Assembly: GCF_023073355.1 (NCBI RefSeq) | Contig: NZ_JADPJI010000005.1 | Span: 186,001 to 250,000, forward strand | From: Bradyrhizobium sp. 199 | GTDB lineage: Bacteria > Pseudomonadota > Alphaproteobacteria > Rhizobiales > Xanthobacteraceae | Direction of reading: 5' to 3' | DNA: 64,000 bases | Part shown: positions 12,141 to 61,901 of the stretch, one piece after another | Numbering within the stretch: position 1 is the stretch's first letter | Layout: each line of letters starts with the position of its first letter | Notes under the pieces: model-generated | Told to the model about the DNA's origin: nothing | The model's database searches: none | The model's input: only the letters and a program-made list of their open reading frames with translations | Program-made: the position numbers and the translations under genes

Positions 12141-14624
12141 TTGGCCACCGCTGTTAATGTCAGTGCCACCAACAACGCCGAGATCGACGGCCTGCTGTCG
12201 GGCTCCAAATGGTCCGGCGCGATCACCTACAGTTTTCCCGACGCACCCAGCGACTATGCCAATCCCTACAGCGGCGGCAACAGTGAGCCGACCACGTCGG
12301 GCTTTGCGTCGGTGCCCACGCAGATCCAGGCGGCGATCAATTACGCGATCGGGCTGATCCTCAGCTACACCAACGCGGACATCCAGTACGCGGGTACTAA
12401 CGGCGCCGACATCATGATCGCGCAGTCGCCGGCGGCCAATCCGACCGCTTACGCCTATTATCCCGGCAACTACGCGCCGGGCGGCGACGTCTGGTTCGGC
12501 ACTCAATACAATTTCTCGCTGGCCAAGCTCGGCAATTATTACTTCACAACCGCGCTTCACGAGCTCGGCCATGCCGTCGGCCTCAAGCACAGCCAGGAGA
12601 CCGGCGGCCCCGCCAACGTCGCGGTGCCGAGCGCGCATGACGACAGCGAATACACCGTCATGAGCTATCGCAGCTATGTCGGCGCTTCGACAACGTCCGG
12701 CTACACCAACGAGGCGTACGGATATTCGCAGACCTACATGGCCAACGATATCCTGGCGCTGCAGACCATGTACGGCGCGGACTACACGACCCAGAACGGC
12801 AGCACCGTCTACACCTGGAATCCCACCACCGGGCAGGAGTTTATCAACGGCGTCGGGCAGCTCGCGCCGGGCGGCGGCGTCGGCGGCTCGGCCAACCGCA
12901 TCTACGAGACGGTCTGGGACGGCGGCGGCGTCGATACCTACGACCTCTCCAACTACACGACGAACCTGAGCATCAACCTCAATCCCGGTGCTTCGTCGGT
13001 GTTCTCCTCCGTACAGCTCGCCAATCTTGGCAACGGCCATTACGCCTCGGGCAACGTCTACAACGCCTATCTCTACAACGGCGACGCACGCTCCTACATC
13101 GACAACGCCATAGGCGGATCCGGCAACGACACGATCATCGGCAACGCCATCGCCAACACGCTGAACGGCGGCGGCGGCAACGACACGTTCACCGGTGGGG
13201 CGGGCAACGACACCATCATCGGCGGCGCCGGCACTGACACCGCGGTCTACTCGGGCAGCAGGGCTAGCTATCTCATCACTTACGATGCGAATTCAGCCAC
13301 GTGGATCGTCACCGATCAGCGTAGCAGCTCTCCCGATGGCATTGACACCGTCACAGGGATAGAAAATTTCAAATTTGCCGACGGCATTATCGACAGTACT
13401 GTTGTCGTACAGCCCGTTCTGCCTGATTTGACCGCGTCATTTGATAGCGTGAGCAGCACGACGATTGTGCCGGGCGGAAGCACCAACGTCGACTTCTGGC
13501 TGGTGAATTTTGGCAAGGCTGCCGCTGCCGCGTCGATCTCAGGCATTTATCTGTCGACGGATGTGACGATCACGACTGGAGATGCGCTGCTGACGACGGT
13601 GGCCTCACCAGGACTGTCGGCGAACGGGGCGACGGGCTATTACGATCACCAGACTGTCTCGCTGGCGCTTCCCGCCAATCTGGCACCCGGCACGTATTAC
13701 ATCGGCGGAATCGCGGACTACAATAATGCGATTTCGGAGAGCAACGAGGCCAACAACAATCACAATGTCACGCAGATCACAGTGCCAGCGCCGGCAGCAC
13801 CGGCCAAGCCTGATTTGACCGCGTCGTTCGACAGCGTCAGCAGCCCGACGATTGCTGCCGGCGGAAGCACAAACGTTGACTTCTGGGTGGTGAATTTTGG
13901 CAAGGCTGCCTCTGCCGCGTCGATCTCGGGCCTTTATCTGTCAACCGACGCGACGATCACGACTGGAGATGCACTGCTGACGACGGTGGCCTCACCAGGG
14001 CTGTCGGCAAACGGGGTGCCGGGTTATTACGATCACCAGACTGTCTCGCTGGCGCTTCCCGCCAGTCTGGCGCCCGGTACGTATTACATCGGCGGAATCG
14101 CGGACTACAATAATGCGATTTCGGAGAGCAACGAGGCCAACAATAATCACAATGTTACGCAGATCACAGTGACAGCACCGGCAGCGCCGGCTCAGCCTGA
14201 TTTGACCGCGTCGTTCGACAGCGTGAGCAGCACGACGATTGCGCCGGGCGGAAGCACTCACGTTGACTTCTGGGTGGTTAATTTTGGCAAGGCTGCGGCT
14301 GCGCCATCGACCTCCGGCTTCTATTTCTCCACGGACGCGACGATTACGACAGCCGACACCTTTCTGACCACGGTCGCCTCTCCGGGCCTGACGGCCAACG
14401 GAACGCTGGGCTACTACGATCACCAAGCGATCACACTGACGCTGCCCAGCAACCTAGCGGCAGGAACCTACTACATTGGTGCGATCGCCGACTACACCAA
14501 CGCAATCGCCGAGCGCAACGAGACCAACAACAACCATAACGTGACCCAGATCACCGTGGTTGCACCATCATCACCGACCCATCCAGATGGACTGCTCCAT
14601 ATCGGTCAAGATCTTCTTGTTTGA
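12141..14624 (+). CDS. Secreted metzincin protease with RTX-like and CARDB-like repeats
   Basis: An 827-residue extracellular zinc protease. The catalytic motif HELGHAVGLKH is at residues 140-150 and the Met-turn VMSY near 173, as in serralysin/matrixin-type metzincins. RTX-like nonapeptides (GGSGNDTIIG, GGGGNDTFTGGAGNDTIIGG) occupy ~325-365, consistent with type I secretion and calcium binding. Three CARDB-like domains follow (~428-814), each beginning PDLTASFDSVSS. There is no N-terminal signal peptide, which fits type I export. The TTG start at 12141 follows GGAGAG by four bases. No secretion ABC transporter is next to it. Confidence 0.88.
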   Translation: MATAVNVSATNNAEIDGLLSGSKWSGAITYSFPDAPSDYANPYSGGNSEPTTSGFASVPTQIQAAINYAIGLILSYTNADIQYAGTNGADIMIAQSPAANPTAYAYYPGNYAPGGDVWFGTQYNFSLAKLGNYYFTTALHELGHAVGLKHSQETGGPANVAVPSAHDDSEYTVMSYRSYVGASTTSGYTNEAYGYSQTYMANDILALQTMYGADYTTQNGSTVYTWNPTTGQEFINGVGQLAPGGGVGGSANRIYETVWDGGGVDTYDLSNYTTNLSINLNPGASSVFSSVQLANLGNGHYASGNVYNAYLYNGDARSYIDNAIGGSGNDTIIGNAIANTLNGGGGNDTFTGGAGNDTIIGGAGTDTAVYSGSRASYLITYDANSATWIVTDQRSSSPDGIDTVTGIENFKFADGIIDSTVVVQPVLPDLTASFDSVSSTTIVPGGSTNVDFWLVNFGKAAAAASISGIYLSTDVTITTGDALLTTVASPGLSANGATGYYDHQTVSLALPANLAPGTYYIGGIADYNNAISESNEANNNHNVTQITVPAPAAPAKPDLTASFDSVSSPTIAAGGSTNVDFWVVNFGKAASAASISGLYLSTDATITTGDALLTTVASPGLSANGVPGYYDHQTVSLALPASLAPGTYYIGGIADYNNAISESNEANNNHNVTQITVTAPAAPAQPDLTASFDSVSSTTIAPGGSTHVDFWVVNFGKAAAAPSTSGFYFSTDATITTADTFLTTVASPGLTANGTLGYYDHQAITLTLPSNLAAGTYYIGAIADYTNAIAERNETNNNHNVTQITVVAPSSPTHPDGLLHIGQDLLV
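13422..14582 (+). repeat. Three tandem 387-bp units inside the protease gene
   Basis: Unit starts (CCTGATTTGACCGCG) are at 13422, 13809 and 14196, exactly 387 bp (129 codons) apart each time. Units 1 and 2 are very similar at the nucleotide level; unit 3 has diverged more in its second half. Each unit encodes one CARDB-like Ig-fold domain. The exact spacing and high identity indicate in-frame tandem duplication, the first two units being the most recent pair. Confidence 0.9.
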
Positions 14625-44189: not shown

Positions 44190-45167
44190 TCAGGAGTTCG
44201 GCTGATGGCCGTTTACCTGGTTTTCCGCCCGATACGCCTTGTACGCGCGCATCAAGCCATCCTTGAGCGACGTTGTCGCGCGCCAGCCGAGATTGTCGAG
44301 CCTACTGACATCGAGCAGCTTGCGCGGCGTTCCGTTGGGGCGTGAAGTGTCGAAACTGATCTCGCCGCGATAGCCGACGATCCCTGCTACCATGAGCGCG
44401 AACTCGGCGATGGCGATGTCCTCGCCGGTGCCGATGTTGATCAGCTCGCTGCCTGAATGGGTCTTCATTAGGTGCACGCAGGCATCCGCCATGTCGTCGA
44501 CATAGAGGAACTCGCGCCGCGGCGTGCCCGTGCCCCAGACAACCACGTTCTTCGCACCCGATAGTTTCGCCTCGTGGAAGCGACGAATGAGCGCGGCGAC
44601 GACGTGGCTCAATTCGGGGTGATAATTGTCGCCCGGGCCGTAGAGATTGGTCGGCATCACGCTGATAAAGTCACTGCCATACTGGCTGCGATAGGCCTCG
44701 GCCATCTTGATGCCGGCGATCTTGGCGATCGCATAGGGCTCGTTGGTCGGCTCCAGCGGTCCGGTGAGCATCGCGTCCTCGCGCAAGGGCTGCGGCGCCA
44801 GTTTTGGATAGATGCAGGACGAGCCGAGAAACATCAGCTTCTCGGCACCATTGATGTGCGCGGCCTGGATCACGTTCGCTGTGATCGCGATATTCTCATA
44901 GATGAAGTTGGCGCGCAGCATGCTGTTGGCGACGATGCCGCCGACTTTTGCTGCCGCCAGAAAAATTACTTGCGGCCGCACCCGTGCGAACCAGTCGAAT
45001 ACTTGAGTCTGGTTGCAGAGATCAACCTCGCGCCGGTCTATCGTGAGGAGCTTGACGTCTTCCCGTGCGAGCCGGCGCACGATGGCGCTGCCGACCATGC
45101 CGCGATGGCCGGCGACATAGACGCTCTTGCCCTTCAGCTCAAACGGTACGCTTGCCATTCGCGACAT
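44190..45167 (-). CDS. fcl: GDP-L-fucose synthase (GDP-4-keto-6-deoxymannose 3,5-epimerase/4-reductase)
   Basis: A 325-residue short-chain dehydrogenase-type enzyme. [18 protein letters not shown] (17-33) is the NADP-binding loop, [19 protein letters not shown] the serine-bearing segment, and Y145-x3-K149 (YAIAK) the catalytic pair. It converts GDP-4-keto-6-deoxy-D-mannose to GDP-L-fucose. AAGGAGG nine bases upstream supports the ATG at 45167, which overlaps the gmd end by 29 bp. It is co-transcribed with gmd and the downstream GT4. Confidence 0.95.
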
Positions 45168-46260
45168 CCCGTTTGGCCTCCTTCAGATCGCTCGTCATCA
45201 TCTCCTCGACGAGCTGGTCAAAGCTCCGCTTCGGTTTCCAGCCGAGAACCTGCCGCGCCTTGCTGGCATCGCCGATCAGCAGATCGACCTCGGTCGGGCG
45301 GAAATAGGTCGGGTCGATCTTCACCAATGTCCTGCCGCTCCTCGCATCTATTCCGGTCTCGTCGACGCCTTGCCCGCGCCATTCTATGCGGCGGCCGACC
45401 TGCGCGAACGACAGCTCGACCATCTCTCGCACCGAGTGCATCTCGCCGGTGGCGAGGACGAAATCGTCGGGCTTGTCGGCCTGCAGGATCATGTGCATGC
45501 CCTCGACATAGTCCTTGGCATGACCCCAGTCACGCTTGGCCTCGAGATTGCCCAGATACAAGGTCTGCTCCAGACCGACTTCAATCCGCGCCACGCCGCG
45601 GGTAATCTTCCGGGTGACGAAGGTCTCGCCGCGGATCGGGCTCTCATGGTTAAACAGGATGCCGTTGGAGGCAAACATGCCGTAGGCTTCGCGGTAATTC
45701 ACGGTGATCCAGTAGCCGTAGAGCTTCGCGACGCCGTAGGGCGAGCGCGGATAGAACGGCGTCGTCTCCTTCTGCGGGATCTCCTGTACGAGGCCGTAAA
45801 GTTCTGAGGTCGAGGCCTGGTAGAACCGGGTCTCTTTCTCCATGCCGAGGATGCGGATCGCCTCTAGTAGGCGCAGCACGCCGATGGCGTCCGCATTGGC
45901 GGTATATTCCGGGCTCTCGAAGCTGACGGCGACATGGCTTTGCGCGGCGAGATTATAGATCTCGGTCGGCCTGATCTGCTGCACCAGGCGGATCAGATTG
46001 GTCGAATCCGTCATGTCGCCGTAATGCATCAGGAACGGCACGTCGCCGAGATGCGGGTCCTGGTAAAGATGATCGACGCGCGCGGTGTTGAAGGAAGACG
46101 ATCGCCGCTTGATGCCGTGCACAACATAGCCGAGCGACAACAGATATTCCGCGAGATAGGCGCCGTCTTGTCCCGTCACGCCGGTGAGCAATGCAACACC
46201 TCTTTCTCGGCTCTTCCAGTTCATCCGCGTTGAGCTTTCCGGGTTTGATGAAGATTGCAT
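45139..46260 (-). CDS. gmd: GDP-mannose 4,6-dehydratase
   Basis: A 373-residue SDR enzyme. [19 protein letters not shown] is the NADP loop, [14 protein letters not shown] and [13 protein letters not shown] are family blocks, and TSELYG with [10 protein letters not shown] gives the catalytic Tyr/Lys. It converts GDP-D-mannose to GDP-4-keto-6-deoxy-D-mannose, the shared precursor for fucose (Fcl) and, in this locus, probably for a perosamine-type sugar (aminotransferase at 36221). The ATG at 46260 has GAGGAC upstream; the frame is open further but unsupported. Confidence 0.95.
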
Positions 46261-46543
46261 GTCGTCCTCAGTGGTCTCACTCAACCGTTCTGCTACTCGA
46301 CCTCGGCGCATAAATCTAGTTTCTAAGTACTTGCGCGCATTGAGGGCGATCAGAAAGATTAATCGCAGCTGAGAGGCTGAACTCATTGCACGAGTTCCGC
46401 AAACATGACATTTTCTTTGCGGCCAGTATAGCGCAGGGGCATTGTTAGAAACACATCAGCACTCGCCCAAAATCAACCCAACCACGTTGGAGACGCTTTC
46501 TGAGGGCGCGTGGCTGAGACGATGCAGCAGCATTATGTCCATT

Positions 46544-48748: not shown

Positions 48749-49069
48749 ATGAAGAAGCAACTTAGGGAATTCCGGCGGTTGCGAATGCTCTGCTTGGAAC
48801 AGGCGTCGGCTGCCTCGACAGAGCTTGAAAAGAATGCTCTTTTGGAAATCGCGGGTCGATATGAGCTGGCTCTCAACACCAGCATGCTCTTTGAGACTGT
48901 CAGTCGAGCAAACAACACGGTGGAAGGCGATCTTCAATTGCGATCCCAAAGACTAATGGGAGAGTTTCGGGCCAGGGCAAGTGGAATCCTGGCATACACC
49001 AGCAGTTTGCTCTGGTTTGCATTTCTGCTTTTGGTTGTGATTTTTGTCGCTCTCTACGTGCCCTGGTGA
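48749..49069 (+). CDS. Small protein with C-terminal membrane span
   Basis: A 106-residue protein. Residues 1-75 are charged and helical (MKKQLREFRRLRMLCLEQAS, ELEKNALLEIAGRYELAL). A single hydrophobic span at ~82-103 ([20 protein letters not shown]) ends at the C-terminus, giving a tail-anchored layout. A GAGG box lies upstream of the ATG. Its 3' end overlaps that of the convergent gene at 49054. Function unknown. Confidence 0.5.
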   Translation: MKKQLREFRRLRMLCLEQASAASTELEKNALLEIAGRYELALNTSMLFETVSRANNTVEGDLQLRSQRLMGEFRARASGILAYTSSLLWFAFLLLVVIFVALYVPW

Positions 49070-49677
49070 GTTTCCGGCACGATCCTTCTCGGGAAACTAG
49101 GCCACGTTCCAACGTTGACCCTCAGCCTTGTTTGTCGAAATGTGTTGAGCTCTTTTAGTAGCGACAACCGCCGCAGCTGGGCTCCACTGAGCATTGCTTC
49201 GAACAGCGAGAGGACCTCTCGCGCCTGAACATAGGCTTCCATACTGACCGCGTGTTGGTCGAAACCGTGGGCTTGAAGACGGGCATTAATCTCGGCTGCG
49301 GCATTCGGATCCAGTTGCCAGTCTAATGCATTCCGAACAATGTAGAATTCGGCAATGCTTTGAAGTGAAGATGAATTGCCCGTAACATCAAGGCGCCGAA
49401 GTGTTGTCTCAATTGCCTTATGGCGGGACGTGGCCAAGAGTCTATGACGTAGTACTCGGTACCGTTGGATCTCCCAAGACAACTCAGCGATGTCGATGGC
49501 GAGCAGCCATTCAACGGCAGTTTGAGGATCGAGGTCGCGGAAGATCACGCCTTGAAGGGCCTGATAATGGTCAATGTTCTCTCCAGGAAGAAGTTGGGGC
49601 GGAGGACACAACGCTGTGAACTGAGGCGGTAGGACGCTCGCCGGCTGCGATTTGCACGGATCGACAGGACCATTCAT
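49054..49677 (-). CDS. Conserved-looking hypothetical protein in recombination operon
   Basis: A 207-residue soluble protein. It has a proline-rich start ([20 protein letters not shown]), helical core ([29 protein letters not shown]) and an acidic helical C-terminal half. The group is familiar as unnamed proteins in Bradyrhizobium-like genomes; no function is known. The ATG at 49677 overlaps the stop of the ERF gene by four bases (ATGA), so it is translated with it. Confidence 0.65.
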
Positions 49678-50852
49678 TGATCTTGCGCCTCCGATAGCGG
49701 GCGCGGCGATGCAACCATTGTTTCCCCGTTCATCAGATGAACAGGACTGGCCTCCCAAAGCTCTTTCGCGATTGCTAGGGGCGCAATTTGCAGATCAGTC
49801 CACCAAGCTCTTTCATCTCCGTGTCGGTGCAGTGACTGGTGGTGAGATCGGCACAGCGGGACGGTGAACTCGTCGCTAACCTTGCGTCCCAATGTTCTTG
49901 GTTGAGCGAACTTTAGGTGATGCGCATCAGCGGGAGTCTTCTGACAGACCAGACAACCTTGGCTGCGGATGAAGGCGAGATGCTCCTTGCTGCGTCGCCG
50001 AGGCAGCTCTTTAGGGAAAGCAAGACCGGCCTGCTCTCCGGGAGATGGGGTGGCAGGTGCGAGGACGTTGCCGGATCTCTCTGAACCAGATTGCTCGGGT
50101 AAGCGCCGTCCTGCAACTGATACGGCCCGCGGCTCTGCTGGATCGACGTCTCGAACGGCAATGTCCTCGAGCCTTTTCTGGTAGGCGGCCTCAACAACGC
50201 GGGCATCCGCTTCCAAGAGAGTGTTTTTGAGGGGGAGGCTGATCCTGGCCCAGGCGAGCAACTCGGCGTTGCCCTCGTGCAAGGCTAGCTCCCCCAGGAG
50301 CCGATCCAGTAGCTTGGCGGAGCGTTCGGGCGGCAATACCGGGGGCCGGTTCAGGACGCCCCCTGCCGGCCTTCGTTTGGGTCCTGACGCGGCCTGCGGC
50401 TCGGGGGCAGCGGGAGGTTCCGTGACGACCTCTGGGGCATCCAAATCGTCCTCTCCGGCGATTCCGACCAGGGCAAACAGGGCGTAGCGGCGGGCATAGG
50501 TCAGCGCTGCCCCCATTCGGTGCGGCGCTTCGACTTCTTTCGAGGCGCAGACAGGAAGGTCGGAGGAGATCCATTCCCCGGAGGCGTGGGCGAGCAGGGT
50601 AGTGAGGTGGATCTGACCGGTTGGCTGCTCAATCCGGGTGGTTTGGATGGTGGCGATCTCCTGCTGGCTCAGGGTCTTGCGCACAATGTCCAGGCCCGAG
50701 GCGAGAGAGGCGTAGCGGAACGTCCGGTCTTCCTCCCGCGGAAAGGGCGAGCGCATTACCGCGGTTAGAGTCTTTTCGGGGTTCGTCAGCTCAGCCTGGG
50801 CGCGGGCAAGGGCGGCGGCGATGGTCCCGATGCGCTCACTGGACTGGTGCAT
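49674..50852 (-). CDS. ERF-family single-strand annealing protein with C-terminal HNH-like domain
   Basis: A 392-residue fusion. Residues 1-140 are an ERF annealing domain: [40 protein letters not shown] and the hallmark [24 protein letters not shown] proline-rich linker and a helical middle follow. Residues ~290-350 hold [16 protein letters not shown] and [19 protein letters not shown], an HNH/DUF968-like zinc module. ERF proteins pair complementary strands in phage recombination; the fused module may nick or bind DNA. It overlaps the YqaJ gene by 17 bp. Confidence 0.85.
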
Positions 50853-51696
50853 GGGAGCCCTCCGCCGGCTGGGCCTCGAAGCTGATCGCGCCCGACTTAG
50901 AACGTTTGGCTTTGATGCCGTGGCCGGTTGCCTCCTTGGCATCCTCCGGCATGAGCTTTTTCAGATCCGCTTTGGCCGTCTCGTGCTCGCCGTGGGCCTC
51001 TCGCGTCCGCAGGTAGGTTGCTGCCAGCTCAGCCCATTGGTTGGAGGTCGACATATCGACGACCTTCACCCCCTCGAGTCTTGGGCGGGGTGTTTCGATA
51101 TTGAAAAGGTTGGGCGGCTCGCCACTTTGAACGCAACGCCAAAACTTCTTTTCTGCTGTGAGCAGGAGGTGTTGATAAAGCGGATCGGCATGGACCTTGA
51201 TCTCAACCCATTTACCACCACCGGTGATGATCGAGAGCACCGCGCCGCGGGACGCCGTAACCCACATGTTGTGCTGCAGCTGGGCCATGTGCTTCTCAGC
51301 CGCGGCTTCTTCTGTAAAGGCCCAAGGCAGCATGAACTTGGCTTCGAATACGGCGCCCGTTTGCTCGATGGTCCCATCCAGCGTAGCGGCCATCCATTTG
51401 TGGATGGGATGACGAACGCGTTTCTGGATGTCCTTGACCGTGTGACCGCTCGCGCGCTGGTACCAGGCGCGGTTCAAGACCTCTGTCACGGTGCCGAGCT
51501 GGACGATCAAATTGTCCGAAAGATCCTCCGGTTCGATTACGCCGCGTTTTTCGCGCCAAAGGCGGATGAGGCTCTCTTGATCATCCCCCATGATGATGCG
51601 GGCGTCCGAGCCGCCGATGAAATGGCGCCGGTCGTTAGGGTTAAATCTGACGATATGATTTGGCGCGTCTGCGCCATTCGTTTGAACCGTTGTCAC
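50836..51696 (-). CDS. YqaJ-family viral recombinase/exonuclease
   Basis: A 286-residue nuclease of the YqaJ group (lambda-exonuclease-like PD-(D/E)XK fold). [10 protein letters not shown] at 28-37, [13 protein letters not shown] at 67-79, then ATLDG (D107), FEAK (E118-x-K120) and [10 protein letters not shown] (Q139-Q141) match the catalytic order. It would resect one DNA strand for annealing by the ERF protein encoded next. YqaJ, ERF and a third gene form one operon of phage type. Confidence 0.9.
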
Positions 51697-52094
51697 CGGT
51701 ATCTCCTACGCAAGAACAAGCGGCGCCAAATGCCGCACTGCCCGAAGCCCCGCGTTCGCGAGGCGAGATACCGGCGCTACAATCGGCGTTGGCGCCCGGC
51801 CGACTCAGTAACGCTCCATTCGCGGACGAAGGCCAGTCCTTTTTGCAGCAACATTGTTGCTCGTTTTCGCGGCAGGAATGGCGCTTGTTCTCACGCGCTT
51901 AGGGCAAGTGCGAGAGGAGGTGGCCGAGTATCAAATCGACAAAACGAAGCCAATTTCCGCATGAACAGCAAAGAGCCAAATGGATAAGGGGCGCGGCGCA
52001 GACAGCGAACTGTCGAAAACCGCCGGAGATGTTGAAACCAAGCAGTATTTGTCGGAAGATCGGCGGGTATCCTTCCAACTTGGGCCAGTGAAAT
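51697..52094. other. Divergent intergenic region
   Basis: About 400 bp between the minus-strand YqaJ operon and the plus-strand HAD phosphatase gene. No supported ORF. It should hold the promoter of the recombination operon; no operator or repeat was recognised. Confidence 0.4.
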
Positions 52095-52717: not shown

Positions 52718-53113
52718 TTGGCCTCAGAGCGACAAATCGAAGCCAACCGCGCAAACTCTGCGAAGAGTACCGGCCCCCAAACAAGCGCTGGGAAAGCAGT
52801 ATCGAGCCGCAACGCCTATCGGCATGGTTTATCGCGTTGGGACGAAGCCGCTGGTTCTGGTTCCGCCGGCTTCGATGTAATCCTTGCGGAGGAGTTCAAA
52901 GGCACGGATATGGAAGCCGCGCTTCAAGATCTGGCTAACGCTAGGAGTCGACAGGATCGCCTGCGAGCTCTTAGGTTAGGTCTGATACTGGCAGTGATCG
53001 AGGGTGCTGAAGCAAAGCAATTGAGATATCTGTCGAACCTGGAGCGGTATGAGAAGGCTGCCCTGTCGTGGCAAAGGCGGGCGCTCAAACGCGTGAGGCG
53101 GAATAACAGATGA
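52718..53113 (+). CDS. Hypothetical protein with RANSAKSTGPQT-type N-terminus
   Basis: A 131-residue basic protein beginning MASERQIEANRANSAKSTGP and followed by QTSAGKAVSSRNAYRHGLS. This N-terminal pattern is widespread in unnamed Rhizobiales proteins; function is unknown. The C-terminal half is helical and charged. The TTG start is backed by AAGGAGG four bases upstream. Confidence 0.7.
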   Translation: MASERQIEANRANSAKSTGPQTSAGKAVSSRNAYRHGLSRWDEAAGSGSAGFDVILAEEFKGTDMEAALQDLANARSRQDRLRALRLGLILAVIEGAEAKQLRYLSNLERYEKAALSWQRRALKRVRRNNR

Positions 53114-55814: not shown

Positions 55815-55935
55815 CCGGTATCAGCGTCGTTCATGGATCGCTCTGAGTTTGGACCGCGCTGCTTGCGGCCCCTTGCTCCGGGGCGCTGGCGTGGCTTTGG
55901 GGGCCGGGCATGTCGCTACAAGCCGGCGGGTGACC
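55815..55935 (+). pseudogene. Decayed copy C of the small membrane-protein gene, antisense to the recombinase tail
   Basis: One plus-strand frame reads VWTALLAAPCSGALAWLWGP then GMSLQAGG and a stop, matching FWTALLSAVCSAVLAWLGKQGISL of copy A. Only the second half survives. On the other strand the same DNA encodes the last ~35 residues of the serine recombinase. Confidence 0.6.
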
Positions 55936-57476
55936 GCTTGAACAAGGCCGCTGACGGTCTTGAAGCGCTTTATTCCTCGCCGCGCTCGCGCGGCTTCGGA
56001 AAAGCGAATCGTGCGTTTCACCTTGCCGTCGGTCGGCAACAGTACGTAGTCGAGTACGGTCTTGTTGTGCTCGGACAAGCGAATGGCGGCAATCCAGCCG
56101 TCAGGAAGAGACGCCTCGCGCTCGATGCTCCAGTGCGGTGCATGGCTCGGCTTTTGGCCGGGTGTCCAACGGGCAGCCCTGACCGATAGACAGGCTGTCC
56201 CGTTCACGCGCAGGCAATCGCTCCAGCCGCCGGAACTGATACTTCCGCCTGCCGCCTTGATCGCGACGGTGGCCTGTTCGACAAGTTTTGCCCTGAGCTC
56301 AGACCAAACAGGACGCGAGTCGATGAAATCGTAATTCCGCTTCGGGGTATAGCCGAGCAACCGATATAGATTTCGAAAGTTGCCGAAGTGCGTCTGACAC
56401 GTCGCGGAGCAGGGAAGCCCCGGAGTTCGATCGATAATGGTCGGTGTCAGGCGCCCCTCTCTGAGGAGGGTCTTGCGTAAGCGAACGAGCATCTCCTCCT
56501 CGGACAGATCAACGCGTCGTTCCTCGATGATCTTCCTCACCCTGAAGAAGACCTCGCGGTCGATGATGGGTTCGATGCAGCCCTCGCTTCTGATCCATTG
56601 TTCAGGAGGGTTTCTCACGGCGGGCTGCCGAAGCTTTTGGGACTTTCGGTTGAAGACGAGGTTCCCGATATAGCTCTCGTTTCTAAGAACAATGCCCACC
56701 GCTGCGCGGGTCCATGGCGCGCCTGTGCTCGAGACGAGTCCCTTCTGATTGAGCTCCCAACCAATCACAGTTTCAGACCTCACCTCCAAGAATCTTTGGA
56801 ACACCCACTTCACGACGGCGATTTCCTTCGGATCACCCAGCCTTATCCGAATGTGGTCCGTAAGGATGTACTTCCGGTCACCCTTCTTCATCACCCCTCT
56901 TGTTTGCATTTTTTCATCGACGAGCTCCCGTACCAGCGCGTAGCCGGCACGGCCACAGGGCTTGTAGCCGAGCCGCGCAAATCGACACTGGCCGGCATAG
57001 ACCTTCGCTGAAAGCTCGCGGCTGTACTCGGCCGCCATCACTCGCTTGATGTTCTTGACGATGCTCGCGAGCATGCTCCCATCATTTTCGAACTGCTCCG
57101 CGCAATAGGCGACCTTGATTCCCGCGCGTCTGCACACGAACTCGTAGTGCGCGCTTTCGTCAACGTCCTGGAAGCGGCCCCATCGGCTGACGTCGTAGAC
57201 CAAGAGATGGCCAAAATCGGTCTGGTTGGTCTCGACATCCTCAAGTAACTGAAGAAGGCCGGCTCTGTTCTTGATGAGCAGCCCGCTCTCGCCCTCGTCC
57301 TTGTAGGTGCGAACCAGCGTAAAGTTGTGAGCGTGGGCGTACGCCGCGATGACGGCAGCCTGATTCTGAATTGAGTATTGCTGTCGGTCGGTTGACATGC
57401 GGACATATTGAGCTGCCCGAGCACCCAGGAGCGCTTTTGGCAGATGAGCTTTGTGAACGATGAGCGCATTACCCAT
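55821..57476 (-). CDS. Large serine recombinase (site-specific)
   Basis: A 551-residue resolvase/invertase-type recombinase. AAQYVRMSTDRQQYSIQNQ has the nucleophile at S28; LLVYDVSRWGRFQDVDESA and an E-helix (IVKNIKRVMAAEYSRELSAKV) complete the catalytic domain. The recombinase domain follows (~170-290: ILTDHIRIRLGDPKEIAVVKWVF, GIVLRNESYIGNLVFNRKSQK). The middle has LPCSATCQTHFGNFRNLYRLLGYTPKRNYDFI, where many relatives have a zinc ribbon. The last ~35 residues (TPAPRSKGPQAARS) are encoded opposite a decayed gene copy and are probably not original. It likely integrates or excises this mobile region. Confidence 0.9.
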   Translation of the reverse strand: MGNALIVHKAHLPKALLGARAAQYVRMSTDRQQYSIQNQAAVIAAYAHAHNFTLVRTYKDEGESGLLIKNRAGLLQLLEDVETNQTDFGHLLVYDVSRWGRFQDVDESAHYEFVCRRAGIKVAYCAEQFENDGSMLASIVKNIKRVMAAEYSRELSAKVYAGQCRFARLGYKPCGRAGYALVRELVDEKMQTRGVMKKGDRKYILTDHIRIRLGDPKEIAVVKWVFQRFLEVRSETVIGWELNQKGLVSSTGAPWTRAAVGIVLRNESYIGNLVFNRKSQKLRQPAVRNPPEQWIRSEGCIEPIIDREVFFRVRKIIEERRVDLSEEEMLVRLRKTLLREGRLTPTIIDRTPGLPCSATCQTHFGNFRNLYRLLGYTPKRNYDFIDSRPVWSELRAKLVEQATVAIKAAGGSISSGGWSDCLRVNGTACLSVRAARWTPGQKPSHAPHWSIEREASLPDGWIAAIRLSEHNKTVLDYVLLPTDGKVKRTIRFSEAARARRGIKRFKTVSGLVQAVTRRLVATCPAPKATPAPRSKGPQAARSKLRAIHERR

Positions 57477-59096: not shown

Positions 59097-59957
59097 TCAT
59101 AATGCGGGCTTTTTGGGTAGTTCAACAATGCTGGCGCCATAAAAAGCTAGGAGTTCTTCAGTGGTCTCGAAGCGCTTGCGTGGCATGATCAGCGGCTTAG
59201 GTACCTTAGCAGGATCCTCGCGATCGAGAAATTCGCCACCTTGCTCGGCCAAGCGAAGAATGTTGCTGAATGCTGCTGCATCGTTTTGCAAGGCCGCGTT
59301 GCAGTTCTTCAAGATAATGAGTTCAGCCAAAGTCACGCTGCGGCTACTGCCATTCTGGTTGATTGTCCTACGTTCGGCCACAAGCCGCTTGAATAGCGCG
59401 ATCATATTGTCGTCCTCCGCAATGGAGGTCTTGCGGCGGGGCTTCGATGCGTTGTTCCTGATCTTGGGCTTAGCGCCGCCAGACCCCGGTTCTCCCGCAG
59501 GCTCGTGAACCGCTTCCGTTTTGCCAGCCTGGGTTGCCCTTTTTAAAGCGTTCTCTCGCTTCCACGCCGCGTAGCTCTCTGGAAAGTCCGACGGAGTGTG
59601 ATCGTCGTAGTAAATGATGTGCGGATGCTTTGAGGTCTCGTTGCGAAAAAGTCCGGCGGCCTGCATCAACTTCAGAAAAATCCGGAACGCGGTTGCCTTG
59701 CCTTCAATCGCTCCCCTCAAAATTTGTCGCAGATATGCCTCTCGTGTCGAGATCTTGCGTCCATCCTTCAACATCTGAGAGCTATCGAATATATCGCGGA
59801 TCAAGATCCCCTCAGGCCGCTTCGGTCGCCCCTTTGGATTGCCTGATCGGCCCTTTGGAAATCTCGAATGCTTCGGTGGTTGTTTATAGCCGACCTCATA
59901 GGGCGCCTGAAGCTCGTCAAGCGTTTGAGGCCTATGGGAGTCGATTTCATCGTCCAT
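59097..59957 (-). CDS. DUF5681-domain protein
   Basis: A 286-residue protein with the DUF5681 signature VGYKQPPKHSRFPKGRSGNP followed by KGRPKRPEG (~22-50). A central acidic/basic linker and a C-terminal helical region (RSVTLAELIILKNCNAALQND) follow. The family is found next to ParB/methyltransferase genes on phage-like and mobile elements; its role is unknown. It lies on the same strand, 155 bp after the DNA methyltransferase gene. Confidence 0.88.
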   Translation of the reverse strand: MDDEIDSHRPQTLDELQAPYEVGYKQPPKHSRFPKGRSGNPKGRPKRPEGILIRDIFDSSQMLKDGRKISTREAYLRQILRGAIEGKATAFRIFLKLMQAAGLFRNETSKHPHIIYYDDHTPSDFPESYAAWKRENALKRATQAGKTEAVHEPAGEPGSGGAKPKIRNNASKPRRKTSIAEDDNMIALFKRLVAERRTINQNGSSRSVTLAELIILKNCNAALQNDAAAFSNILRLAEQGGEFLDREDPAKVPKPLIMPRKRFETTEELLAFYGASIVELPKKPAL

Positions 59958-60111: not shown

Positions 60112-61398
60112 TCAAGCCGCCCGAATCTCCGCAAGCTCCTCAAAAGTCTCCTGCATGGGATAAAGCAGAGCCTTCTTTCCGGTGTACTGCTCCCAACGCC
60201 GCACCGCGACATCGACGTAGGCCGGGTCAAGCTCGATTGCCCGGGCAACGCGACCGGTCTTTTCCGCTGCAATCAGAATCGTTCCGCTGCCGCAGAAGGG
60301 ATCAAGGACTATCTGGCCGCGCTTTGAGCAGTCCTTGATGGCATCGGCCACCATGGCTACGGGCTTGACCGTCGGGTGAAGCTTCAGCTCCTCGAGGCGC
60401 CCCGCCTTCATGCTGGTTGCCCCCTCATAATCCCAGACGTTGGTTCGATAACGCCCGTGCTGACCGAGCTCGAAGGTATTGGTGTGCGCGCCAGAGCCAT
60501 TCTTCCAGACGAACACGAACTCATGCTTGGAGCGGTAGAACGATCCCATCCCGGCGTTGGACTTGTTCCAGACGCAGAGATTCTTGAGCTCCGCGTAATG
60601 CTTATCGCCCGCATTCAACATTTCCCGCATATGTCGCCAGTCCATGCAGATCTGGTGGATCGAGCCGTCCTTCGAGTAGTAGCAAAGCAACCGGAAGGTC
60701 TTGGAGAGGAATGTGGTGAATTCCTCCTCGCTCATCTCGCCCGACGCCATGGCAAATTCACGATGCTTGATAGCGCCGAGGCCCGAGACATTTCCGCAAA
60801 TGCGAACATTGTAAGGTGGGTCGGTGAAAACGAACTCGGCCCGCTCCCGATCCATGAGGGTGTCGTAGACCGCGCGATCGGTCGCATCCCCACAGAAAAG
60901 GGCGTGCTTTCCCAGCCGCCACATGTCCCCGACGCGGCTGATGGGTAGAGCATCACCGCGCTCCGGGATCCGGTTCTCTGGCTGATCGCTGGTCTCGTCG
61001 AAGTTCTCGATAATGCAGTCGACCTCGGCAGCTTCGAAGCCCGTCAAATCGAGGTCGAATCCGACGTCAGCGAGCTGCTTCAATTCGATGGCAAGGATCT
61101 CATTATCCCAACCCGCCTTTTCTGCAAGGCGATTGTCCGCAAGAATGTAGGCCCGCTTGTCGGTCTCGCTCAGGTGGGAAAGGCGCACGCAGGGGACGGT
61201 CTGAAGGTTCAGCAGGCTTGCCGCCGCAAGACGTCCATGACCTGCAATCACCTGGCCTTCATCATCGACCAGAATGGGGTTGTTAAACCCGAACCGTTCG
61301 ATGCTCTGTACGATCTGCTTGACCTGCTTCGCCGAATGGGTGCGGGCATTGCCGGCGTAGGACTTTAAAGTGTCAATTGACAGCTGCTCGATCTGCAA
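60112..61398 (-). CDS. ParB-domain DNA methyltransferase (beta class)
   Basis: A 428-residue fusion of a ParB/sulfiredoxin-type N-terminus and an N4/N6 DNA methyltransferase. ParB part: SIERFGFNNPILVDDEGQVI then AGHGRLAAA at 52-60. Methyltransferase: motif IV FTDPPYN at 191-197 precedes motif I LDPFCGSGTILIAAEKTGR at 365-383, the beta-class order; the target-recognition segment lies between. It would methylate adenine or cytosine in its target site. A TTG at 61398 follows GGGAGAG and starts the ParB fold; the longer upstream frame is unsupported. Confidence 0.9.
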   Translation of the reverse strand: MQIEQLSIDTLKSYAGNARTHSAKQVKQIVQSIERFGFNNPILVDDEGQVIAGHGRLAAASLLNLQTVPCVRLSHLSETDKRAYILADNRLAEKAGWDNEILAIELKQLADVGFDLDLTGFEAAEVDCIIENFDETSDQPENRIPERGDALPISRVGDMWRLGKHALFCGDATDRAVYDTLMDRERAEFVFTDPPYNVRICGNVSGLGAIKHREFAMASGEMSEEEFTTFLSKTFRLLCYYSKDGSIHQICMDWRHMREMLNAGDKHYAELKNLCVWNKSNAGMGSFYRSKHEFVFVWKNGSGAHTNTFELGQHGRYRTNVWDYEGATSMKAGRLEELKLHPTVKPVAMVADAIKDCSKRGQIVLDPFCGSGTILIAAEKTGRVARAIELDPAYVDVAVRRWEQYTGKKALLYPMQETFEELAEIRAA

Positions 61399-61490
61399 AG
61401 GTTCTCTCCCGAATTGAGTTCGCTTGAGGCGGAATGCCCCGGGAGGTTTTTGCAGATGAGGCGGCCGAATTCGCTCACGGAAATTAGCGG

Positions 61491-61901
61491 TTACGGTGCA
61501 CGAACGGGAGGACGCGGGAACTGGCGCTCGATCTCCGCTTCGAAGTCCTCCGAATCCCTGCAGCGGTCGTCGGGATGTAGGCGCCCATTCTTCCAATGAG
61601 TGTGCTTATTCCGGAGGCTCTTCCAATCGATATTCTTGAGGCGCTTATGTGCCCAAGATGCCAACAGGCCGTAAGCGCGCTCGCTGGTCGCGATATGATC
61701 TGCGGTGCGTAATGGGGCCGCTTGATCTGCCTTGAGCCGCCGGCAAAGCCACGGATAGATCCTGTCGATCTGCTCAAGGGTAAAGTCCTCCAGCGCTGGA
61801 TGGTTGGGCGGGCGACCGCGGCCCTTCTTGGTGGGAAGGTCGTGCCGGACGTGCCATGGCGAATCGTCTTGAAGCCGCTGCTGATCAAACGGGACACCCA
61901 T
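61491..61901 (-). CDS. Hypothetical protein of the mobile region
   Basis: A 136-residue soluble protein (KKGRGRPPNHPALEDFTLEQ, IDRIYPWLCRRLKADQAAPL, WAHKRLKNIDWKSLRNKHTH). Basic and helical, no membrane segment; possibly DNA- or RNA-binding. It lies upstream of the DNA methyltransferase gene on the same strand, 92 bp away, and is probably in the same operon. No family was recognised. Confidence 0.6.
   Translation of the reverse strand: MGVPFDQQRLQDDSPWHVRHDLPTKKGRGRPPNHPALEDFTLEQIDRIYPWLCRRLKADQAAPLRTADHIATSERAYGLLASWAHKRLKNIDWKSLRNKHTHWKNGRLHPDDRCRDSEDFEAEIERQFPRPPVRAP

Follow-up and report, generated by a model that had tools for sequence, protein, structure and literature searches.

Red and RecE/RecT are phage exonuclease/annealing pairs. 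YqaJ/RecT is described as another pair of this kind (available part of PMC8093625). In such pairs the exonuclease gene lies directly before the gene of the single-strand annealing protein, and the operon described here has the same order. Curtis et al. reported in 2014 that the domain DUF968 is fused to Erf, Rad52, RusA or Orf, so that the same Pfam domain is joined to an annealing protein as in the present case; in the part of that paper available, the fusions are named in one sentence, which gives no operon, partner gene, leader or genomic setting (PMC4118853). Gp16 of phage NM1 consists of an Orf/NinB-like part and an HNH domain and, according to the available part of the source, is a RecA-dependent nuclease whose expression stops host growth; this effect was lost in zinc-ligand mutants, while among the catalytic mutants it was weakened in two and retained in H157A (PMC12817073). 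Ref of phage P1 is reported, again in the part available, to be an HNH nuclease acting on recombination joints (PMC3973344).

We analysed an operon in a 64,000-nucleotide stretch of Bradyrhizobium sp. 199 DNA, hereafter the window. Unlike the phage pairs, the operon is chromosomal and virion genes are not common nearby; furthermore, its annealing protein has a fused HNH domain (hence ERF-HNH), and a third, helical gene and a structured leader are present in part of the copies. As in the part of the Gp16 work that was available, a recombination-mediator-like part is joined to HNH, and in a mapping made here the ERF-HNH residues C, H, C, H, H, H are spaced exactly as are C148, H157, C181, H184, H185 and H189 of Gp16; however, ERF replaces the Orf-like part and the gene is chromosomal. 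Ref, as the available text describes it, is likewise an HNH nuclease for recombination joints, a role that is only proposed for ERF-HNH. The match of ERF-HNH to the Ref family PF16786 was below the cut-off (12.3 bits against 26.9, E 0.19). To our knowledge, P1 Ref has no annealing domain.

Layout and conservation of the operon

The operon lies on the minus strand and comprises YqaJ, ERF and the third gene, in that order, with consecutive genes overlapping. The YqaJ-family exonuclease gene (50836..51696, GTG start, 286 aa) matched PF09588 with 57.7 bits (cut-off 22) and, among the PHROGs, phrog_434, RecE-like exonuclease (E 2.4e-41). It overlaps by 17 bases the next gene (49674..50852, ATG start, 392 aa), which encodes an ERF single-strand annealing protein with a C-terminal DUF968-type HNH domain, and the stop of this gene has ATGA in common with the start of the third gene (49054..49677, 207 aa), which codes for an all-helical protein without a named family. 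The original prediction had YqaJ and ERF overlapping and the third gene coupled through ATGA, and both overlaps are present. In 55 of 55 loci, all of which had been chosen for holding the ERF-HNH fusion, YqaJ was found upstream of ERF, on its strand and no more than 1,200 bases away, and the aligned ends of the two overlapped in 45. The predicted combination of a two-step recombination pair, a built-in HNH-type module and a coupled, unnamed third gene is supported.

The matches to PF04404 (ERF annealing domain, 50427..50822, minus strand; 65.1 bits, cut-off 25) and PF06147 (DUF968/HNH nuclease domain, 49803..50024, minus strand; 50.4 bits, cut-off 27.8) sit in one reading frame, and the PHROG matches of the protein were to an Erf-like annealing protein and an HNH endonuclease. 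The PF06147 match, at residues 277-350 of the 392-aa protein, covers profile positions 79-149 of 171, which is the HNH half, the first half of the profile being unmatched. The motif CxxC...HH...CxxHHxxxH is made up of C300, C303, H311, H312, C334, H337, H338 and H342 (numbers of the 392-aa protein, the alignment tool's numbers being one lower), and these residues, as well as D327, were invariant in 27 of 27 aligned full-length fusions. The zinc module that had been expected at the C-terminus of ERF, within residues 280-392, is therefore there, and because DUF968 and HNH families match, it is by family nuclease-like and not merely structural. What did not hold was the notion that such a pair is unusual in itself, since the 2014 paper, in the part available, already names DUF968 fusions with Erf and Rad52 (PMC4118853). 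The solved chain nearest to the ERF domain, both by sequence (E 1.3e-9) and by Foldseek, was Gp77 (9y6u), with RAD52 chains as lower-ranked structural matches. The full-length ERF-HNH model was poor (mean pLDDT 64.9), and its C-terminal part gave weak alignments to two HNH enzymes, EcoKMcrA (Z 5.2) and IscB (Z 5.0).

Values of dN/dS were 0.03-0.13 for YqaJ, 0.03-0.07 for the ERF domain, 0.02-0.16 for the HNH domain and 0.20-0.47 for the linker of the ERF-HNH protein (seven pairs each), and 0.09-0.15 for the third gene (six pairs, one saturated). These values indicate that purifying selection acts on all three genes of the operon and, along with the constant YqaJ-ERF order and the invariant zinc/HNH residues, speak against a chance arrangement.

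Pfam, PHROGs and NCBIfam contained no match to the third protein at E<=1, and no relative was found among solved structures. Its AlphaFold model is all helix, a helical bundle with a pLDDT of 84.6; the fold search with this model gave no convincing match, a result that says nothing about the fold. Of 53 full copies, some of which are orthologous loci, 27 have the third gene or a fragment of it no more than 300 bases downstream, and the other 26 lack it; six of the 27 were fragments as read from the list. When 100 genomes were searched, the 17 matches with E below 1e-60 all adjoined an ERF-HNH gene or its remnant, as judged by eye. It accompanies the pair in only about half of the copies, and the distribution points to a lineage-specific companion that is not universal. 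We also noted an unnamed family with a motif like EANRxNAxxSTGPxTxxGKxxSxxNAxxHGL, encoded in the window at 52718-53113 (plus strand) and in many other loci, often divergent from YqaJ or beside proteins resembling the third one. Weak profile matches (E about 1e-6) suggest that this family and the third gene may belong to one wider uncharacterised family.

The same HNH domain is fused in related genomes to a Rad52-type annealing protein (L059, L109 and L112), and the Rad52-HNH gene of L109 stands behind a Gp157-type gene. All nine Rad52 proteins found in 14 genomes adjoined, by eye, an HNH match on the same strand; nine of these genomes had been picked because of such HNH matches. In L111 (2810-4291, plus strand), YqaJ itself carries the DUF968/HNH domain, with no ERF part in the fusion. 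The ERF-HNH and Rad52-HNH fusions are candidates for enzymes that both anneal and cut within a single protein.

A conserved leader upstream of YqaJ

The minus-strand leader of the operon (51697..51864) was delimited by blastn boundaries and alignment. Homology with copies elsewhere began at 51862-51866 in six of ten blastn comparisons; of the remaining four, two with syntenic loci ran on past this boundary and two with distant loci stopped inside YqaJ. According to a single-sequence fold, stems P1 and P2 can form in the last 80 bases before YqaJ. The 5' arm of P1 (51765..51774, minus strand; CCGGTATCTC) pairs with the 3' arm at 51696..51705 (minus strand; GAGATACCGG), which covers both the ribosome-binding site and the initial base of the YqaJ start codon, and hairpin P2 (51748..51763, minus strand) is situated inside P1.

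Both stems were drawn from the fold of the window leader and by eye, and were then counted on 39 leaders, which remained after 43 had been gathered by gene position and four without resemblance dropped. In these 39 leaders, 95.0% of the P1 and P2 cells were paired (92.3% for P1, 99.6% for P2) compared with 35-56% when the stems were slid, and one P1 pair failed in 15 leaders. Three P1 pairs were changed on both sides, one of them from A-U to C-G in seven sequences. The covariation score of 0.080, against 0.054 in shuffles, was reached by none of 500 shuffles; the number of pairs changed on both sides was not above shuffles, being reached by 46 of 500, and neither was the count of further pair types. 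With the whole 179-column leader alignment as input, RNAalifold preferred a different fold, whose covariation term was just -0.11, the folding energy of the window leader was unremarkable compared with shuffles (z -1.03), and Rfam gave no match in the window or in five loci.

A covariance model trained on these same leaders gave eight matches with E below 1e-13 in 60 genomes, of which seven precede YqaJ of an ERF-HNH operon and the eighth (G010) precedes a more distant YqaJ copy. A weaker match (G002, 51.7 bits) stands alone: YqaJ-ERF is missing, and HAD, the decayed leader, fcl and gmd remain (the last two recognised by eye), indicating absence of the operon at what appears to be the same locus. 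The lone decayed YqaJ leader, between HAD and fcl-gmd where the operon is missing, is at about 2860-2960 of L256. Two further matches were marginal (G060 and G023), the surroundings of G023 being devoid of operon genes. At ten loci that lack this leader, its place is taken by a divergent HTH-like gene, the one tested matching PF13560 below its cut-off. SOS control of the operon was considered and rejected, as no GAAC-N7-GAAC or GTTC-N7-GTTC box was found in up to 260 bases around 23 YqaJ starts. The folded leader may control the operon and is a candidate new translational control element.

Distribution and genomic setting

A second full copy of the operon is present in the same 6.1-Mb genome. 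Matches were detected in 35 of 100 relatives, the own genome included, and in 3 of 41 genera; many broken copies occur in these 100 genomes, and several species keep two copies at separate places. In a search of 391 genomes of the family, with at most 4 candidates scored per genome, 131 genomes from 23 of 47 genera had a match, part of them HNH-only; as any match at all was found in only 131 of the 391, the operon is dispensable. Class-wide, 8 of 289 genomes (own genome included) had a match, and no full-length match was listed outside the own genome with at most 6 candidates scored per genome. The named loci among the matches listed were mostly from Bradyrhizobium, with others from Nitrobacter, Afipia and Rhodoplanes, and the few metagenome bins listed under other labels included Beijerinckiaceae, Hyphomicrobiaceae, Rhizobium and two Acidobacteriota bins. 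None of 50,697 phage records and none of 72,556 plasmid records covered 80% of the ERF-HNH protein in one place. Five viral-collection contigs of 4-13 kb had a match, one only weakly, by ERF; among short contigs of this collection, L024 carries two YqaJ-ERF pairs and L023 two YqaJ copies and one ERF.

In the window, the region from the operon down to 36 kb contains the GDP-fucose synthesis genes gmd and fcl (44190..46386, minus strand; PF16363 and PF01370), which are a recurrent glycan neighbour, as well as a glycosyltransferase and a DegT aminotransferase gene; a further glycosyltransferase gene lies at 14.7-16.7 kb. An 827-aa protein with CARDB and serralysin-like M10/RTX domains is encoded at 12141-14624 (plus strand). 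On the other side of the operon are minus-strand genes for a large serine recombinase (55821-57476), a DUF5681 protein (59097-59957) and a ParB-N6/N4 methylase (60112-61596); at some other loci a terminase gene lies between genes of these types and the operon.

We tallied the neighbours at 20 copies from loci of different location groups, taking 7 proteins of 130 to 900 aa each and removing operon genes; a few of these proteins were still related to each other (one pair was 89% identical). The 140 proteins included 8 GDP-mannose dehydratases (GDP_Man_Dehyd), 8 epimerases, 7 RmlD, 5 DNA methylases, 4 DUF5681 and 4 terminases (Terminase_6C), none of which ranks among the 25 commonest families for 140 proteins taken around 20 of 40 random loci, a ranking that reaches down to families of 2 members. 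Also present were 3 IS66 transposases, 3 rve transposases and 2 Pfam tail collar proteins. Among the 25 commonest of the 124 PHROG families of the 140 neighbours, terminase and ParB-methylase were found, but capsid, portal and tail were not. Therefore, the term phage-type in the original prediction fits the origin of the operon, but fits its present setting less well.

Operon copies are enriched near polysaccharide loci. Queries with E. coli O-antigen and colanic acid proteins found a match in 20 of 41 module loci compared with 4 of 40 random loci; the module set omitted L031, which was removed manually, and loci that hold only partial copies, L052-L060 and L063 among them, and L152, which is one of the four matching random loci, happens to be within about 27 kb of the G059 copy. 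We selected 24 genomes that carry the module and are assembled in few contigs; of their 29 full copies, 13 lay within 50 kb of a gene for the initiating sugar transferase Bac_transf (1.29 expected, P 8e-11), whereas only 3 of 91 serine recombinases of the same genomes did so (3.8 expected). When copies with four or more common flanking genes were collapsed, 7 of 17 locations were near Bac_transf (at most 0.84 expected, P 8e-6); with two shared flanking genes as the criterion, 28 of 49 loci fall into one group, so that true independence may be lower. For the window's own copy, which gmd, fcl and a glycosyltransferase gene adjoin, the closest Bac_transf on the contig is nevertheless 455 kb away. 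None of five Rad52-HNH genes was within 50 kb of Bac_transf, one being at about 97 kb; the distance was measurable in five of nine genomes, the genes being on different contigs in the other four, and as only about 0.25 was expected (by hand), this result neither supports nor clearly contradicts the polysaccharide link. No earlier report of this operon near polysaccharide genes was found in one literature library with the terms used, and in the literature searched the companion gene and the leader were not found either, whereas the ERF-DUF968 fusion is already known.

Orthologous loci have gmd-fcl at corresponding places downstream of the operon, but its orientation varies. It shares the strand of the operon in the window, L027, L028, L155, L156 (partial) and L161 and is on the opposite strand in L026, L029 and L171, whereas in L030 and L158 the two genes are separated and on different strands. 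Comparison of L026 with L028 revealed an in-place inversion flanked by conserved sequence. These differences fit recombination there but do not prove it. The search for a site-specific switch in three loci yielded nothing beyond inverted pairs of 18 to 34 nt (71-89%), and for this reason we do not claim a gmd-fcl switch.

Possible functions of the operon

We consider that the operon is probably a phage-derived but chromosomally kept operon for RecA-independent resection and annealing. Beyond the level of domains, we infer that YqaJ would resect a DNA end 5' to 3' and that the ERF domain would coat the exposed strand and, without RecA, anneal it to a sequence that matches in part. The HNH domain tethered to it would then introduce a nick in the joint, in the displaced strand or in a flap, and a single protein would thus both anneal and resolve. 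Where the third, helical protein is present, it might assist by loading or bridging, and in the window's lineage the leader stem over the ribosome-binding site would hold back translation of YqaJ, the first gene.

The operon could instead be a selfish mobile element of about 2.7 kb, reaching from the leader to the third gene, which would move through recombination of its own and end up in polysaccharide islands, as these vary and tolerate insertion. The left boundary shared in six of the ten blastn comparisons, the 27 location groups among 49 loci (a place being defined by four shared flanking genes) and the repeated copies on single contigs give this account some weight. We nevertheless regard it as doubtful, since copies at one place are common to several species, serine recombinases of the same genomes are not near Bac_transf beyond chance, and the 25 commonest neighbour families include no phage integrase, IS66 and rve accounting for 3 of 140 proteins each. 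A piece of phage recombination machinery left without present function in a genomic island, that is, a remnant of a defective prophage, would agree with the broken copies, with the HTH-like gene divergent from YqaJ in other copies, and with the Terminase_6C, DUF5681 and ParB-methylase genes that flank several copies; it is nonetheless unlikely, as all parts are under purifying selection between species with dN/dS near 0.05, which is not relaxed, separate second copies are retained in several species, and no capsid or portal family is among the commonest neighbours. It is more improbable still that the operon is an anti-phage or anti-plasmid system in which HNH cuts foreign recombination intermediates. 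NM1 Gp16, which has a similar HNH domain, does stop host growth on expression (available part of PMC12817073); however, an exonuclease with an annealing protein is a recombination pair.

If the operon is, as we favour, a host-kept recombination operon, a more specific role in surface-polysaccharide diversity could be envisaged. The leader would switch on RecA-free recombination of diverged glycan cassettes such as gmd-fcl, which is inverted next to the operon when orthologous loci from different species are compared; HNH would resolve the joints, and the third protein would be a lineage-specific helper. This full scheme is unlikely. Should the polysaccharide association be functional, bacteria of this family would reshuffle their coat genes with a phage-style annealing machine, which would offer a testable route to surface variation, both against phages and in symbiosis. 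Even without a role in coat genes, the operon provides candidate annealing-plus-cutting enzymes and a candidate translational control leader.
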